Source: a virus
Direction: 5' to 3' (one strand)
IMG/VR virus record: IMGVR_UViG_3300036770_006296
Span: 124,001-188,000 of that record
DNA: 64,000 bases
How positions within the stretch are numbered: position 1 is the first letter of the stretch; each line of letters begins with the position of its first letter. Position numbers and translations under genes: made by a program. A model generated the notes under the pieces. The model was not told the origin of the DNA. It worked only from the letters and a program-made list of their open reading frames with translations, and did no database searches. Below, piece after piece: positions 5,594 to 46,510 of this stretch.

Positions 5594-6011
5594 GGGCCCG
5601 CTTTGGATTTGACAGGCGGAGGTAGTTCTTTGAAATGATGCAGGCAGGGTTAGATTGGAAATCCTTAATCACCTATCAAACAATAAACGCAAACGTTTAC
5701 AACGCAGAGGATATGATGAGTATCCCAACTTCTATTACTCGCGTAGCGGTAGCAGAAGAGGCTGAGTTGCTAATGGCAGCTTAACCGGCGGGCCGCACCG
5801 GCCTAGGAACAGAAAGGTGATGGTGGAGTCAGGTCTTACCTTAAAGACCGAAACGGAAATTCGGTTCATCCCGAAGAGTACACAGACCGAGCATTAAGTT
5901 TGTAATAAAAGAAATGCAAAAAAGTTTGTCCGTGTCGAATAACGGAATAAGCCTGTGAATGAGTTTCTTGAGCATTCGATCTGGACGAGGGTTCGACCCC
6001 CTCCGGGTCCA
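5594..6011 (+). ncRNA. ssrA: Transfer-messenger RNA with a long tag
   Basis: Acceptor stem GGGCCCG (5594-5600) pairs with CGGGTCC (6004-6010, one G-U), followed by discriminator A6011; CCA is not encoded. The 5' side reads CTTTGGATTTGACAGG, as in the tmRNA D-arm region, and the T arm is GAGGG-TTCGACC-CCCTC (5987-6003). The tag frame most likely resumes at GCA 5689 in GCAAACG, as in E. coli, and ends TAA at 5784: about 31 residues, starting ANVYNAEDMM and ending AEELLMAA-like (AEAELLMAA region, final LLMAA). Its role is to rescue stalled ribosomes with SmpB and tag the nascent peptide. The tag is longer than usual, and its LLMAA end still looks like a ClpXP degron. A terminator follows. Confidence 0.9.
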
Positions 6012-6019
6012 CTAGATTT

Positions 6020-6048
6020 AATCCCACTCTTATGGAGTGGGATTTTTT
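6020..6048. terminator. Bidirectional terminator after tmRNA
   Basis: Perfect 10-bp stem AATCCCACTC/GAGTGGGATT, loop TTATG, followed by T6. It ends the tmRNA and, read from the other side, includes the stop codon of the convergent gene at 6030, so it probably serves both. Confidence 0.85.
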
Positions 6049-22222: not shown

Positions 22223-22348
22223 AGTCAGGTGGCGGAATTGGTAGACGCATAAATAAAGGTTAACAGTAAGGATAACGTAGAGTAACCTTGAAATACCCAT
22301 AAGTATAGCTCATAAGTTATCATACAGGTTCGAATCCTGTCCTGACTA
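22223..22348 (+). tRNA. tRNA-Leu-like gene with a large atypical central domain
   Basis: Acceptor AGTCAGG (22223-22229) pairs perfectly with CCTGACT (22341-22347). T8-G9, D stem GCG/CGC with loop GAATTGGTAGA, and T arm ACAGG-TTCGAAT-CCTGT are all classical and Leu-like. However, the region between the D and T arms is about 74 bases and no 5-bp, 7-base anticodon arm is seen. It can form ATAA/TTAT closing pairs, a 7-bp AAGGTTA/TAACCTT stem (22256-22262 with 22283-22289) and ATAC/GTAT. At 126 bases it is about 40 longer than a normal tRNA-Leu. It may hold an insert or be a tRNA-like RNA without decoding function. CCA is not encoded. Confidence 0.6.
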
Positions 22349-31974: not shown

Positions 31975-32955
31975 ATGGTAAAGAAAAAAGGACCTATCAG
32001 TATGTTTATAGAAAGAAACTATAAACACTTTAATGCAGCAGCTCTAAAAGATGCTGCTATAGGATATGAAACACACATCGACGGTGGAGGAAAAATGCTG
32101 GTCTCTCTTGCTGGTGCAATGAGCACAGCAGAACTTGGTATTTCTCTTGCTGAAATGATTAGAGCTGGTAAAGTTGATATTATTTCTTGTACTGGTGCCA
32201 ACCTAGAAGAAGATCTCATGAATCTTGTAGCACATTCACATTACAAGAGAATACCTAATTACAGAGATCTTACCCCAAAAGAGGAGCGTGATTTATTAGA
32301 CAATGGACTTAATAGAGTTACAGATACTTGCATTCCGGAGGAAGAAGCATTCAGAAGACTACAGAATCACATATATGATATATGGAAAAAAGCAGAAAGC
32401 AGAGGAGAAAGACACTTTCCACACAAATACATGTACGAATTAATAAATAGCGGAGTGTTAGAGCAGTACTATGAAATTGATCCTAAGGATTCATGGATGG
32501 TTGCAGCAGCAGAGGTGAATTTACCTATGGTTGTTCCAGGGTGGGAAGATTCCACCTTAGGAAACATCTTTGCTTCGTATGTAATAAAAGGTGACTTGAA
32601 GCACGACACTGTAAAAAACGGGATAGAGTATATGGTTTCTTTAAGCCATTGGTACAGGGAAAATTGTCAAGAGCCAGGAATAGGATTCTTCCAGATAGGT
32701 GGGGGAATTGCCGGGGATTTTCCTATCTGTGTTGTACCTATGATGTACCAAGATCTTGAATGGGAGGATGTACCATTTTGGTCTTATTTCTGTCAAATTT
32801 CGGATTCAACAACATCTTATGGTTCTTATTCAGGAGCAGTACCAAATGAAAAGATTACTTGGGGCAAATTGGACGCAGACACCCCTAAATTTATTGTAGA
32901 ATCGGATGCCACAATAGTTGCTCCCCTGATTTTTTCATGGATATTAAATAAATAG
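31975..32955 (+). CDS. Deoxyhypusine synthase-like protein
   Basis: 326 residues, full DHS length. The NAD/spermidine fold is visible: MLVSLAGAMSTAELGISLAE (35-75 region), VDIISCTGANLEEDL (matches the TTAGGVEEDL motif), FQIGGGIAGDF and the catalytic lysine motif WGK, with Lys298 in EKITWGKLDADTP. DHS moves the aminobutyl group of spermidine to eIF5A; bacterial relatives without eIF5A are often homospermidine synthase-like or of unknown role. In a phage it probably acts on polyamines. No leader, no signal peptide. Confidence 0.88.
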   Translation: MVKKKGPISMFIERNYKHFNAAALKDAAIGYETHIDGGGKMLVSLAGAMSTAELGISLAEMIRAGKVDIISCTGANLEEDLMNLVAHSHYKRIPNYRDLTPKEERDLLDNGLNRVTDTCIPEEEAFRRLQNHIYDIWKKAESRGERHFPHKYMYELINSGVLEQYYEIDPKDSWMVAAAEVNLPMVVPGWEDSTLGNIFASYVIKGDLKHDTVKNGIEYMVSLSHWYRENCQEPGIGFFQIGGGIAGDFPICVVPMMYQDLEWEDVPFWSYFCQISDSTTSYGSYSGAVPNEKITWGKLDADTPKFIVESDATIVAPLIFSWILNK

Positions 32956-36370: not shown

Positions 36371-36943
36371 ATGGCAGACACAATTAACTTACCAAACCCT
36401 AAAGAAAGAAACCTTTTCTTTGACAAACAGGTCTCACAAAGTTCTGTAAATACCCTTTCGAAAGATATCATAGAAATTAACGAGCATGACGAATACATTA
36501 AAAAAATCTATGATGCTCACGACTTAAACTATACTCCTAAACCAATTAAGATCTATATCGATTCTTATGGAGGATATGTTTACCAGTGTCTAGGTTTAGT
36601 TGGTATAATGAGATCCTCTAAAACTCCTATTCATACAATAGTTACTGGGTGTGCAATGTCTTCGGGATTTTTGATAGCTATATCGGGACACAAAAGATTT
36701 GGACATCTTAGATCTACATATTTATATCACCAAGTTGCAGGAGGTGCTTTTGGAAAGGTGAAGGACATGGAAGAAGAACTTGCTGAGATTTTAAGATTAC
36801 AGCAAGCAGTGGAGGAGATAACACTAGAAAGTACTGCTATAACAAAAAAGATGCTAGAGAAAGCATATAGAGGGAAAAAAGACTGGTATATTACATCAGA
36901 ACAAGCAATTAAATTAAAAATAATAGATGAAATAATATCTTAA
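36371..36943 (+). CDS. ClpP-like serine protease
   Basis: 190 residues. The ClpP fold is clear: IYIDSYGGYVYQCLGLVGIM, then GCAMSSGFLIAISG with Ser97 at the nucleophile place, LYHQVAGGAFG with His120, and KKDWYITSEQAI with Asp171 completing the triad. It overlaps the helicase start by one base (TAATG). No ClpX-like partner is in the window; the AAA protein at 57891 is of another class. Could act in virion maturation or host-protein turnover. Confidence 0.86.
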   Translation: MADTINLPNPKERNLFFDKQVSQSSVNTLSKDIIEINEHDEYIKKIYDAHDLNYTPKPIKIYIDSYGGYVYQCLGLVGIMRSSKTPIHTIVTGCAMSSGFLIAISGHKRFGHLRSTYLYHQVAGGAFGKVKDMEEELAEILRLQQAVEEITLESTAITKKMLEKAYRGKKDWYITSEQAIKLKIIDEIIS

Positions 36944-42705: not shown

Positions 42706-44472
42706 ATGTCTACTCTATCTAAAATCTCTCTGGTATTATCTGCTTTAATAATGTCTATTTATTTTAGTATACAATCTCTATTAGTTTTCAATTATATCGA
42801 TTATACGGAATCTTTGGGTAGATTTGAATATGGATGTTTCGTTTTATTTGTCCCACTTTTTTCGATAGTTGTTAGAGAGTTTATAATAAAAAATAAGAGG
42901 AGTATTAAATTAAATATCTATGGTAAAAAATTAAATGACGTTCTTGTGAAGCAGTCGCATAATAGATTATTCTATAATGGAAATCTATCAGAGGCTGCTA
43001 AAGAATTAACTAAAGAGGTCACACAATCCATTAATGTTGAGAGATGCTCAGTTTGGCTATACAATAGGGATAAAACATCAATAGTTTGCCAACAGCTTTA
43101 TATTAAGTCAGAGTACACTTGGTATCAGGGATCTGAATTACTCGAGAAAGACTTTAGGCCCTATTTTGATGCTTTGAAAAATAATCCTGTCATTGTAGCA
43201 AATAATGCAGAGAAACATCCCTCTACATCTTGCTTTAGTGAAGTTTATTTAAAACCATTGGGCATAAAATCGATGTTAGATGTACCTATCCTGTTTAAAG
43301 GTGATGTAATAGGAGTAATATGTATAGAGAGCTTAGTAAAAAAAGAATGGTGTGAATTCGAGATTAATTTTTCCAAGTTGCTCTCTTCCTTATATACTTT
43401 TTCTTATTCAGTAAAAGAAAACAAAAAACAAGATCAAAAAATAGATGACATTAATAATTTTATAGATGAAGCTGCCCTTGTTTCTAAAACAGACGCAAAG
43501 GGAAAAATTGTATATGTGAATAAAAAATTCGAGGAGGTATCAGGATGGAGTCTGAAAGAAGTAATAGGTAAGGACCACAATATAGTTAATTCAGGTGAAC
43601 ATCCCAAGGAAATGTGGGCAGAAATGTATAAGAGTGTTTTAGTAGATAAAAATATTTGGAATAGGGTTATTACAAACAAAGCAAAAGATGGACATTTATA
43701 CCATGTGGACACTTATATAAAAGCGGAATTCGACACGGAGACTGGAGATCTAATAGGATTTATTTCTATCAGGCAGGATGTAAGTAAAATAGTATATACA
43801 TTACAAGAGATAGACAAGAAAAATACTTATTTAGAACATGCTGCTAAAATAATTAGACATGACATGCACTCGGGAATAAACACCTATATTCCAAGGGGGA
43901 TTAGCTCACTAGAAAGAAGACTTTCCGACGAAGATATAAAAAATCTTAAAATAGAAGCTCCATTAAAAATGATTAAAGAAGGGCTTAGACATACTCAAAA
44001 GGTATATAAAGGAGTTTATGAGTTTACTAATCTTGTTAAAAAGGACGCAGCCCTTAACAAGGATGAAATAGATCTAAAGTATATCCTCGACGATTATCTT
44101 TCTTCGACTGCTTATAAAAGCCAGGTTGATATATCAAACTTAGGAAAGTTTAGTGTCAATGAGGCTCTTTTTTGCACTGCAATTGATAATTTAATAAGGA
44201 ACGGACTTAAATATAATGATAGTAACAACAAATCTGTAAAAATATCAAGAATAGGAAATATTATTTATGTTGAAGACAATGGTAGAGGCTTAACATCTGA
44301 AGAATTTAAGACTCTTTCTAAACCATATACTAGGAAGGAGGGTCAAAAAGAAACCGGTACTGGCTTAGGATTAAATATATGTATATCAATACTCAAAGAA
44401 CACGGATTTTCAGTCGATTGTGAAAAAAAGGTTGAAGGCGGATCTAGAATAAAAATAAAGTTAGATAAATGA
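42706..44472 (+). CDS. Membrane sensor histidine kinase with GAF and PAS domains
   Basis: 588 residues. Two TM helices (about 6-28 and 42-60) without a cleavable signal, a GAF domain (about 88-235: INVERCSVWLYNRDKTSIVC), a linker coil, a PAS domain (about 250-362: LVSKTDAKGKIVYVNKKFEE), then the dimerisation/H-box region IIRHDMHSGINTY with His385. The ATP-binding part has N box DNLIRNGLKYN (494-504), G1 EDNGRG (523-528) and G2 GTGLGL (551-556). All residues for autophosphorylation appear intact. It should sense a cytoplasmic signal and phosphorylate the receiver at 46512. Overlaps 44469 by four bases. Confidence 0.9.
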   Translation: MSTLSKISLVLSALIMSIYFSIQSLLVFNYIDYTESLGRFEYGCFVLFVPLFSIVVREFIIKNKRSIKLNIYGKKLNDVLVKQSHNRLFYNGNLSEAAKELTKEVTQSINVERCSVWLYNRDKTSIVCQQLYIKSEYTWYQGSELLEKDFRPYFDALKNNPVIVANNAEKHPSTSCFSEVYLKPLGIKSMLDVPILFKGDVIGVICIESLVKKEWCEFEINFSKLLSSLYTFSYSVKENKKQDQKIDDINNFIDEAALVSKTDAKGKIVYVNKKFEEVSGWSLKEVIGKDHNIVNSGEHPKEMWAEMYKSVLVDKNIWNRVITNKAKDGHLYHVDTYIKAEFDTETGDLIGFISIRQDVSKIVYTLQEIDKKNTYLEHAAKIIRHDMHSGINTYIPRGISSLERRLSDEDIKNLKIEAPLKMIKEGLRHTQKVYKGVYEFTNLVKKDAALNKDEIDLKYILDDYLSSTAYKSQVDISNLGKFSVNEALFCTAIDNLIRNGLKYNDSNNKSVKISRIGNIIYVEDNGRGLTSEEFKTLSKPYTRKEGQKETGTGLGLNICISILKEHGFSVDCEKKVEGGSRIKIKLDK

Positions 44473-45074
44473 AAAAAATATTTTTAATTATTATCCTATT
44501 GGGGATAAGGGGATTTTGCTTTTCTCAAAACTTTTATCCGATACAAACAATTTTAAAAGGAGATTCTGTTGTTATATACACGCTAGAACAGTCTCAAGAT
44601 ATAAATCTAATGATACAGAATCAAAAATCATTAAATGTAAGCTATAAGAGCAAATATGAGCACTATCTAGGAAAAACAGACAGTTTAGAAAAAATAGTAG
44701 CTGCGCAACTGTACTTGATTGATAGCTTAAGATTAGTTCAAAAAAATCAAGATAGCTTGGAAAAAAAATTACACACAATAGAAAGTTGGTTAGTAAAAGC
44801 ATCAATCGATAACTCTTACCTCTATATGTCATGGCAGGATTCTAAAATTAAATCGGTGGACCTAACATTATATACTGTTCATTGCAGTATGCAAACAGGA
44901 ACGATAAGAATGGTTAGGAGAGGTCCTAATGATGAATTTTATACCTGGAAAGGAATAAACCACACAAGAAGAGAAAGCCCCTCCATTAACTGGGAATTAA
45001 AATATCCAGAGGAAGATAGGCCGATAGTTAATAATTTACCAGTAGATATCAAAATAAGTCAATATGTAAGATGA
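44469..45074 (+). CDS. Secreted or periplasmic coiled-coil protein of the kinase cassette
   Basis: 201 residues. MKKIFLIIILLGIRGFCFSQ is a signal peptide ending FSQ. The mature part has a coiled coil (LGKTDSLEKIVAAQLYLIDS, LRLVQKNQDSLEKKLHTIES) and a C-terminal strand-rich part (VDLTLYTVHCSMQTGTIRMV). It overlaps both neighbours, so it is made together with the two kinases. It may present or block the periplasmic signal of one kinase. Confidence 0.7.
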   Translation: MKKIFLIIILLGIRGFCFSQNFYPIQTILKGDSVVIYTLEQSQDINLMIQNQKSLNVSYKSKYEHYLGKTDSLEKIVAAQLYLIDSLRLVQKNQDSLEKKLHTIESWLVKASIDNSYLYMSWQDSKIKSVDLTLYTVHCSMQTGTIRMVRRGPNDEFYTWKGINHTRRESPSINWELKYPEEDRPIVNNLPVDIKISQYVR

Positions 45075-46510
45075 AAAAAATAGTGCTTTTAGTAGTAATA
45101 CTATTCTCTTTCCAGAGCTTTTCTACCGCTCAAGGAATAACCCCGAATAAAAAATCTATAGTTGAAGCTGTTTGGGATCAAGGAATACCAGTTTGTCCTG
45201 ATGACAAATACATATCTTCACTTATCGACAAAGTTGGATTTGATAATCTAAGAAATAATAAAAAACCTATTGATAAGAATGAAGCTAAATTGTGTAGGGA
45301 GATAGGGATTGCTTTTTACAATAGGGGAATGTATGAAGCTGCTGACTGGTATTTAGAAAGAGTCAGAGGATACGTTGAGGTTGTAGAACTCGAGCCGGAG
45401 GTGGTTTTTGAAACACCCAAGCAGGAAGAGGAAGAGGAGGATGTTTCTATAGATGATATAAAAAGTCTAGAAGCGGACAAGGAATTTTTACAAAATCTTC
45501 CTAAAAGTTACGACAACGTTTCTCCCGGTGACATGAAAAAGTTAGCGGACCAAATTGAAGACCAAATAAAAAAGCTCATTGCAGAAAAAGAAGCTTTATT
45601 AAAAAGAAATGCTCCTAAATCTGTTATAGATGCTAAGGATGCTGCTATAGGATCTTTAGGAAAAGAAAAAGAAATCATAGACCTATCTATAGAAAAAGAA
45701 GATTTAGAGGTAGAAGTAGTTGACTTAGAAGACGATAAAAAAGTATTAAGGAAATATTTAATAGGATCCGTTATAGGAATTATTATAGCTATTTTAGCAA
45801 TAATAGCTCTACTACAAAGGAAAACAATAAGAGTAAAAGACGTAGAGCTAGAAAAGCAGTTAGATGATATCAATAAGAAAAATACTTATCTTGAATATGC
45901 TGCTAGAATTATTAGACATGATATGCACAGTGGTATTAATACTTATATGCCTAGAGGCCTTTCCTCTCTACAGAAAAGAATGGATCAGGAAAAAATCGAT
46001 GAACTAAAGATCGGTCCTTCTTTAAAGATGATTTCAGAGGGATTAGCACACACCCAAAAGGTATATAAAAATGTATATGAATTTACAAATCTCGTAAAAG
46101 TTAAGGCAGATTTTAGTACTAAAGAAATAGATCTAAAGGAGGCTTTGGAGAAATATCTAGCTAACACCTCATACAGAAATCAAGTTGTAATAGATGATCT
46201 TGGTTTGGTAAATGCTAATGAGCAATTGTTTTGTAATGCAATAGATAATCTGATTAAAAATGGCCTCAAATACAACGAGAAAAACGACAAATGTGTTAAG
46301 ATATATAAGGAAGTAGATGTAATAGTTGTTGAAGATAATGGTATAGGATTAACGTCTAAAAAATTCGAAGAATTAATCAAAAAAGGCATTGATACAGAAT
46401 CTGATACCGGTATTGGATTAAGTATTACAAAAGCAATTATTGAAGAACATGGCTATTCCATCTTTTGTGAGAAAGTTGAGAATGGCACAAAAATGAAAAT
46501 AAAAATATAA
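45071..46510 (+). CDS. Sensor histidine kinase with exported helical sensor region
   Basis: 479 residues. Signal peptide MKKIVLLVVILFSFQSFSTA, a periplasmic helical part with a possible TPR-like repeat (AFYNRGMYEAADWYLERV, about 81-98), an acidic linker and long coiled coil (about 155-225), one TM helix (YLIGSVIGIIIAILAIIALL, 229-248), then the H-box IIRHDMHSGINTY with His283, N box DNLIKNGLKYN (392-402), G1 EDNGIG (421-426) and G2 TGIGL (446-450). Kinase core is clearly a paralogue of 42706. Could sense an envelope signal, such as stress or superinfection. Followed one base later by the receiver gene. Confidence 0.9.
   Translation: MKKIVLLVVILFSFQSFSTAQGITPNKKSIVEAVWDQGIPVCPDDKYISSLIDKVGFDNLRNNKKPIDKNEAKLCREIGIAFYNRGMYEAADWYLERVRGYVEVVELEPEVVFETPKQEEEEEDVSIDDIKSLEADKEFLQNLPKSYDNVSPGDMKKLADQIEDQIKKLIAEKEALLKRNAPKSVIDAKDAAIGSLGKEKEIIDLSIEKEDLEVEVVDLEDDKKVLRKYLIGSVIGIIIAILAIIALLQRKTIRVKDVELEKQLDDINKKNTYLEYAARIIRHDMHSGINTYMPRGLSSLQKRMDQEKIDELKIGPSLKMISEGLAHTQKVYKNVYEFTNLVKVKADFSTKEIDLKEALEKYLANTSYRNQVVIDDLGLVNANEQLFCNAIDNLIKNGLKYNEKNDKCVKIYKEVDVIVVEDNGIGLTSKKFEELIKKGIDTESDTGIGLSITKAIIEEHGYSIFCEKVENGTKMKIKI

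Follow-up and report, generated by a model that had tools for sequence, protein, structure and literature searches.

The tmRNA gene

The window analysed here is the 64,000-nucleotide stretch from position 124001 to 188000 of a 206,617-bp virus record (IMGVR_UViG_3300036770_006296). It contains one tmRNA (ssrA) gene of the one-piece type, located by ARAGORN at 5594–6012 on the plus strand, on which all parts of the gene described below also lie. The Rfam tmRNA model RF00023 matched positions 5594–6014 with 85.0 bits (E = 1.6e-31; gathering cut-off, 47 bits), and the full model (1–374) was covered. This model is itself without pseudoknots; the regions of PK1 to PK4 were aligned by Rfam with a mean accuracy of 0.62. 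The gene is thereby confirmed as a real tmRNA of the RF00023 family, and the covariance-model search proposed in the sequence-only reading, which had named a phage tmRNA here, bears that identification out.

The acceptor stem is formed by GGGCCCG (5594–5600) and CGGGTCC (6004–6010), with all seven positions paired. It includes a wobble of the G3·U70 type at 5596/6008, with G5596 as the G of the third pair; a G·U at this pair is the alanine identity element. The discriminator A6011 is followed by CTA, i.e. the 3' CCA is not encoded. The T arm (GAGGG-TTCGACC-CCCTC, 5987–6003), part of the 3' tRNA domain reported by ARAGORN, has a perfectly paired stem and the loop TTCGACC. It had been suggested from the letters alone that the acceptor stem, T arm and resume context look functional; this is apparently right, and the coordinates and frame given with it were correct. 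In addition, a helix-5-like stem (GAGTTGC/GCAGCTT, 5764–5784), recognized in the sequence and in the Rfam alignment, surrounds the last tag codons and the degron (ELLMAA plus stop). Downstream of the gene is an intrinsic terminator of the strong type (6020–6044; 11 pairs, loop of 3 and a T tail), and a scan for sigma-70 promoters upstream of the gene found none.

The 31-residue tag

The tag reading frame occupies positions 96–191 of the gene (5689–5784) and consists of 31 codons and a TAA stop, with GCA (5689–5691) as the resume codon. ARAGORN gave the encoded tag as ANVYNAEDMMSIPTSITRVAVAEEAELLMAA, which can be divided into an N-terminal module (ANVYN-A-EDMMSIPTSIT), a linker and a C-terminal part (EEAELLMAA). 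The end LLMAA is of the C-terminal hydrophobic-Ala-Ala type, as in ssrA-type ClpXP degrons. An unusually long tag of about 31 residues, running from GCA 5689 to TAA 5784 and ending in LLMAA, had been claimed beforehand, and both ARAGORN and the relatives described below agree with it. In alignments with this class, the relatives match from the resume codon (GCA, GGC or GAC) onwards, which leaves the use of another resume codon and a short tag unsupported. That the relatives encode the same peptide with different codons shows that the frame has not stayed open by chance.

For comparison, the tags of 43 bacterial tmRNAs, taken from two bacterial genome samples of which one was from Bacteroidota, were 9–16 aa long with a median of 10 (ARAGORN), and 10 is also the most frequent tag length in a tmRNA database paper of 2025 (PMC11915505). 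The 31-aa tag is thus three times the usual length and far outside the bacterial sample. It is less odd among phage tmRNAs: a comparison set, collected with a 3' motif that has nothing to do with the tag, contained several other classes of long tags (e.g. GKTNVWDAINAFGAPVAEVEYAVAA, ANVELSTMTFEDAMSFVGVDLAVAA and NGENPFFALAGLGSVESVEVALAA), together with short ones such as ANVDYSTEYYAVAA. A second class of long tags is built around VWD[AV]IN.FG[AT]P and ends in AA (L069, L070, L079, L091, L105, L244 and others), and a third carries FEDAMSFVG; all three long classes seem to have an acidic-hydrophobic motif in mid-tag in common. In the long-tag phage tmRNAs L008, L012, L024, L043, L048, L050, L059 and L073, the tags called by ARAGORN were truncated or wrong, e.g. 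EEAELLLAA for GKTINTEDMMSILTSITAPVVVAEEAELLLAA. As the start of the tag is dropped in several relatives, automatically compiled lists of phage tags may be wrong.

A virus-specific module in the tag

Relatives found through conserved stretches of the tmRNA have the core E-D-[MI]-M-S-I-P-T-S in common. These first searches fixed nucleotides, and the conservation of the exact nucleotides GAGGATATNATGAGTATCC seen in the first pass was therefore biased by the search pattern; it was replaced by searches of IMG/VR that accept any codons for E-D-x-M-S-I-P-T. This codon-degenerate search returned 52 contigs. In every one of them, a tag frame lies within tmRNA-like sequence, and the tags, of 28–34 aa, contain the same core; many of the 52 loci were confirmed by ARAGORN or Rfam and the rest were judged by their resemblance to these, a few being cut at the ends of the locus. 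Applied to 84,980 genomes of bacteria and archaea, the same pattern had 23 matches, none of them in a tmRNA. A relaxed core ([DE][DE][IM][hydrophobic]-S-IPTS) added four loci, none of which is a tmRNA. Because the relaxed pattern gave no further tmRNA, the E, D and M of the core do not vary. As far as these collections and this stringency reach, which would miss contigs shorter than 3 kb and diverged cores, the core is specific to viral contigs. Among INPHARED phages, a distant blastn search with the tmRNA found only a 33-nt stretch of the tag in LR756501 and LR756503, and tblastn with the tag found no records beyond these two. A tag that differs from that of the host had been considered in the sequence-only reading; the present one differs from ordinary host tags, in that the core was in no bacterial tmRNA found.

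The module E-D-M-M-S-I-P-T-S-I-T (5707–5739) is near-invariant in 43 distinct tag ORFs. About half of the relatives use other codons for it (GAA GAC ATA ATG TCT ATT as against GAG GAT ATG ATG AGT ATC), the Ser codon being AGT in some and TCT or TCC in others. Just past the core, at codons 9–11, which lie outside the first degenerate pattern, Ser is present in 42, Ile/Leu in 42 and Thr in 40 of the 43 tags, and four, seven and three different codons, respectively, are in use for them. The retention of the module while its codons change indicates conservation at the level of the peptide. The other end of the tag keeps a character like that of hydrophobic-Ala-Ala: Ala is the last residue in 37 and the next to last in 31 of the 43 distinct tags.

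An RNA hairpin within the module codons

A predicted RNA hairpin, GGATA-TGATGAG-TATCC (5709–5725), lies within the tag frame. Among the 72 synonymous choices for E-D-M-M-S-I, the encoding in the window is the most stable, and the nine codings observed all fall within roughly the most stable fifth. A hairpin at this place was predicted in 42 of the 43 distinct tag ORFs with a mean stem probability above 0.7, the exception being L127 (0.3). Relatives of the TCT class form a different hairpin in a shifted register (AGACA-TNA-TGTCT). In two of the relatives, synonymous changes of GAA to GAG and of TCT to TCC turn the first pair of the TCT-class hairpin from A-U to G-C, and this one pair, with both of its sides altered in the two sequences, is the source of the support from covariation. 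A shuffle test (11/500) gave modest support to the hairpin; the synonymous-codon test is the stronger one. A tree was built from the rest of the tmRNA gene, with long branches for some rows of interest. In this tree, L142 and L123, which have TCT codings, are nested among AGT relatives, and L126 and L135, which have TCC codings, lie among the TCT relatives or next to them, so that the switch of the Ser codon seems to have happened more than once.

These data could be taken to mean that the module is conserved only as RNA, with the hairpin folding, positioning or protecting the mRNA-like part and the peptide being a by-product. The top rank of the window coding, the formation of a hairpin by every observed coding and the A-U to G-C change would all fit. 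However, the same E-D-x-M-S-I is encoded by two hairpins that differ in register and sequence, and P-T-S-[IL]-T, outside the stem, is also conserved although its third positions are free. Such a pattern is hard to square with selection on RNA alone, because this would not preserve the peptide, and we regard the explanation as unlikely. If peptide and hairpin are both constrained, the module would be a compact case of dual coding on a short stretch of a tmRNA frame.

A slightly weaker candidate is that only the terminal degron matters, the remainder being a neutral spacer inherited in the phage lineage. The linker does vary freely in length and sequence among the tags, and the short phage tags mentioned above are consistent with such a spacer. 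Nevertheless, pN/pS was 0.28 for codons 9–11, but 0.89 in the linker and 0.78 over the five final codons of the same tags (pairwise values, uncorrected for phylogeny), and the module is kept across very diverged tmRNA backbones, including that of a 735-kb phage. It is improbable on these grounds that the module is spacer, and it probably does something for the virus.

Genome context and possible partners

The replication genes of the phage are T4-like, including a split DNA polymerase, topoisomerase II and a Dda-like helicase. The topoisomerase, which shares about 29% identity with the enzymes of many T4-like phages, gives no clue to the host. Shine-Dalgarno motifs are nearly absent (3 of 68 ORFs in the window; control, 1) and the leaders are A-rich, which hints at a Bacteroidota-like host. 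A Bacteroidota host is not claimed, as the promoter motif TAnnTTTG was not enriched (70, as against 78 in the reversed control).

SmpB was not found in the 206,617-bp record, nor in 19 other viral carrier contigs, several of which are fragments. It is encoded by the 735-kb phage LR756501, alongside the same tag class. A ClpP-like protease of 190 aa is encoded in the window at 36371–36943 on the plus strand (Pfam PF00574, E = 3.7e-25; further matches to NCBIfam and to ClpP structures in PDB), and the catalytic Ser, His and Asp align (GCAMSSG, YHQ and KKDWY). As its score was below the NCBIfam equivalog cut-off (61.6 as against 308.6 bits, TIGR00493), it is called ClpP-like and not ClpP. The position of the gene gives no link with the tmRNA, and a ClpP-like gene was present in 7 of 21 carriers, this genome included; ClpP was accordingly rejected as a general partner of the module. 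In this phage it is a possible partner, fitting an interest of the phage in proteolysis after tagging. For a Clp ATPase, no match to PF10431 was found in the genome.

Several other loci of the window are worth recording: 1) A tRNA-like gene at 22223–22348 (Rfam, 40.6 bits) has a long insertion in the anticodon region and was read by ARAGORN as tRNA-Met(CAT) only when an intron was allowed. 2) The ORF at 31975–32955 matches deoxyhypusine synthase (PF01916, E = 5.7e-40), which is unexpected in a phage. 3) Two proteins, encoded at 42706–44472 and 45071–46510, have histidine-kinase-type ATPase domains (HATPase_c), the former also having GAF and PAS domains.

Proposed role of the tag

tmRNA and SmpB tag the chains of stalled ribosomes, and a terminal LAA-like end feeds these chains to ClpXP. 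The reading we prefer, at a probability of about 0.6, is that the gene encodes a working phage tmRNA which carries out trans-translation during infection and adds a two-part tag whose module is a second recognition element. It starts from what the DNA presents, i.e. a tmRNA with its frame and a degron-like end, a peptide conserved specifically in viral contigs, and codons biased towards a hairpin, and from these we infer expression of the tmRNA, its charging, the tagging and a partner of the module. With SmpB and alanyl-tRNA synthetase of the host, the tmRNA would enter stalled ribosomes, translation would resume at GCA 5689, and the two-part tag would be added, reading A-NVYNAEDMMSIPTSITRVAVAEEAELLMAA at the break point with the leading A derived from the charged Ala. 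The C-terminal EEAELLMAA, as a canonical hydrophobic-Ala-Ala degron, would direct the chains to ClpXP-type proteases. The N-terminal module, close after the resume codon, is most likely the second recognition element and would bind an adaptor, an unfoldase or a phage-altered ClpP, by which rescued chains would be handled on the phage's terms. A probable function of the in-frame hairpin is to hold the long open frame in a compact form or in its proper position within the tmRNA.

A narrower version, which we put forward tentatively, is that EDxMSIPTS is a virus-specific address label, read by a dedicated receptor of the phage or the host, so that the chains would meet a fate other than that of host-tagged ones. 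If this is true, they might be passed to a phage-altered ClpP, degraded late or selectively, or recycled. Redirection of tagged peptides had been raised in the sequence-only reading; the conserved virus-specific module and the ClpP-like gene are compatible with it, and nothing was found in support of the further suggestion that the tag serves as a reservoir. A second site in a tag has a precedent in E. coli, where the SspB adaptor binds the ssrA tag N-terminal to the LAA degron. Adaptors of the SspB type are an analogy in the way of working only; unlike in that system, the adaptor of the phage module is hypothetical, and the two sites (AANDENY and EDxMSIPTS) have no sequence relation.

Published suggestions are that phage tmRNAs may serve i) upkeep of the hijacked machinery, ii) selective degradation of host proteins or iii) sensing of the host state (PMC9004378, PMC7162821). 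Another explanation would have the phage tmRNA act chiefly as a decoy or stress sensor, which competes for SmpB or stalled ribosomes, the content of the tag being secondary. The tmRNA of phage DS6A, with little beyond the tRNA-like domain, resembles a tmRNA-inhibiting form (PMC4131195, PMC11915505), and the failure to find SmpB in the phage's own record would suit such a role. A decoy would, however, have no need of the full conserved tag frame with its stop and degron, and we consider this somewhat less likely even than a neutral spacer. That the module is a mobile palindromic element inserted in frame into tmRNA genes, like the Rickettsia palindromic elements, was rejected as very improbable: it is palindromic, in frame and within an RNA gene, but it occurs in a single copy in its genome even with up to 3 mismatches allowed, all 52 viral matches are at the same place of the tmRNA, and it is synonymously recoded. 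A tag peptide kept despite strong nucleotide divergence, present in tmRNAs of viral contigs but in no tmRNA of the cellular genomes scanned, makes the purpose of phage tmRNAs testable through what binds EDxMSIPTS and the fate of proteins carrying it.

Comparison with known tmRNAs

The gene resembles bacterial one-piece tmRNAs in its tRNA-like domain, G3·U70-type pair, T arm, resume codon, tag frame, helix-5-like stem and terminal hydrophobic-Ala-Ala, and differs from them by a tag of 31 instead of about 10 aa, the in-frame hairpin and a module not found in bacterial tmRNAs. tmRNAs carried by viruses are on record for mycobacteriophages Bxz1, Wildcat and others, Bacillus phage G, Methylophilales phage Melnitz and huge phages (PMC4131195, PMC9004378, PMC7162821), and among the lytic genes of Wildcat the tmRNA is the one with the highest expression (PMC7474061). 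In the open-access papers searched, no mention of the EDxMSIPTS tag class or of an in-frame hairpin was found; the present gene is a member of the tmRNA family, new by its tag.

The same module is present in the tag of LR756501 (GDYKMNAEDMMSIPTSLTGKVATESFVEDLVLA), an uncultured phage which, unlike the phage of the window, encodes SmpB itself and whose tmRNA is interrupted in the T-arm region by a group I intron. A 735-kb genome was reported in Clades of huge phages (PMC7162821), and LR756501 is presumably that genome. Group I introns, which are known in bacterial tmRNA (PMC11915505), were detected in the T-arm region of tmRNAs of this tag class (Rfam RF00028, 96–100 bits; L042:328-554, L039:7609-7837 and L115:3247-3478), the carriers including the 735-kb phage. 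The tmRNA-like 3' ends of L047, L051, L072 and L081 have a T loop without TTCGA (e.g. stem, loop and stem of CCGGG, GGCAGTA and CCCGG), with TAAGCCTGTGAATGAG or a similar motif and the acceptor end still present.
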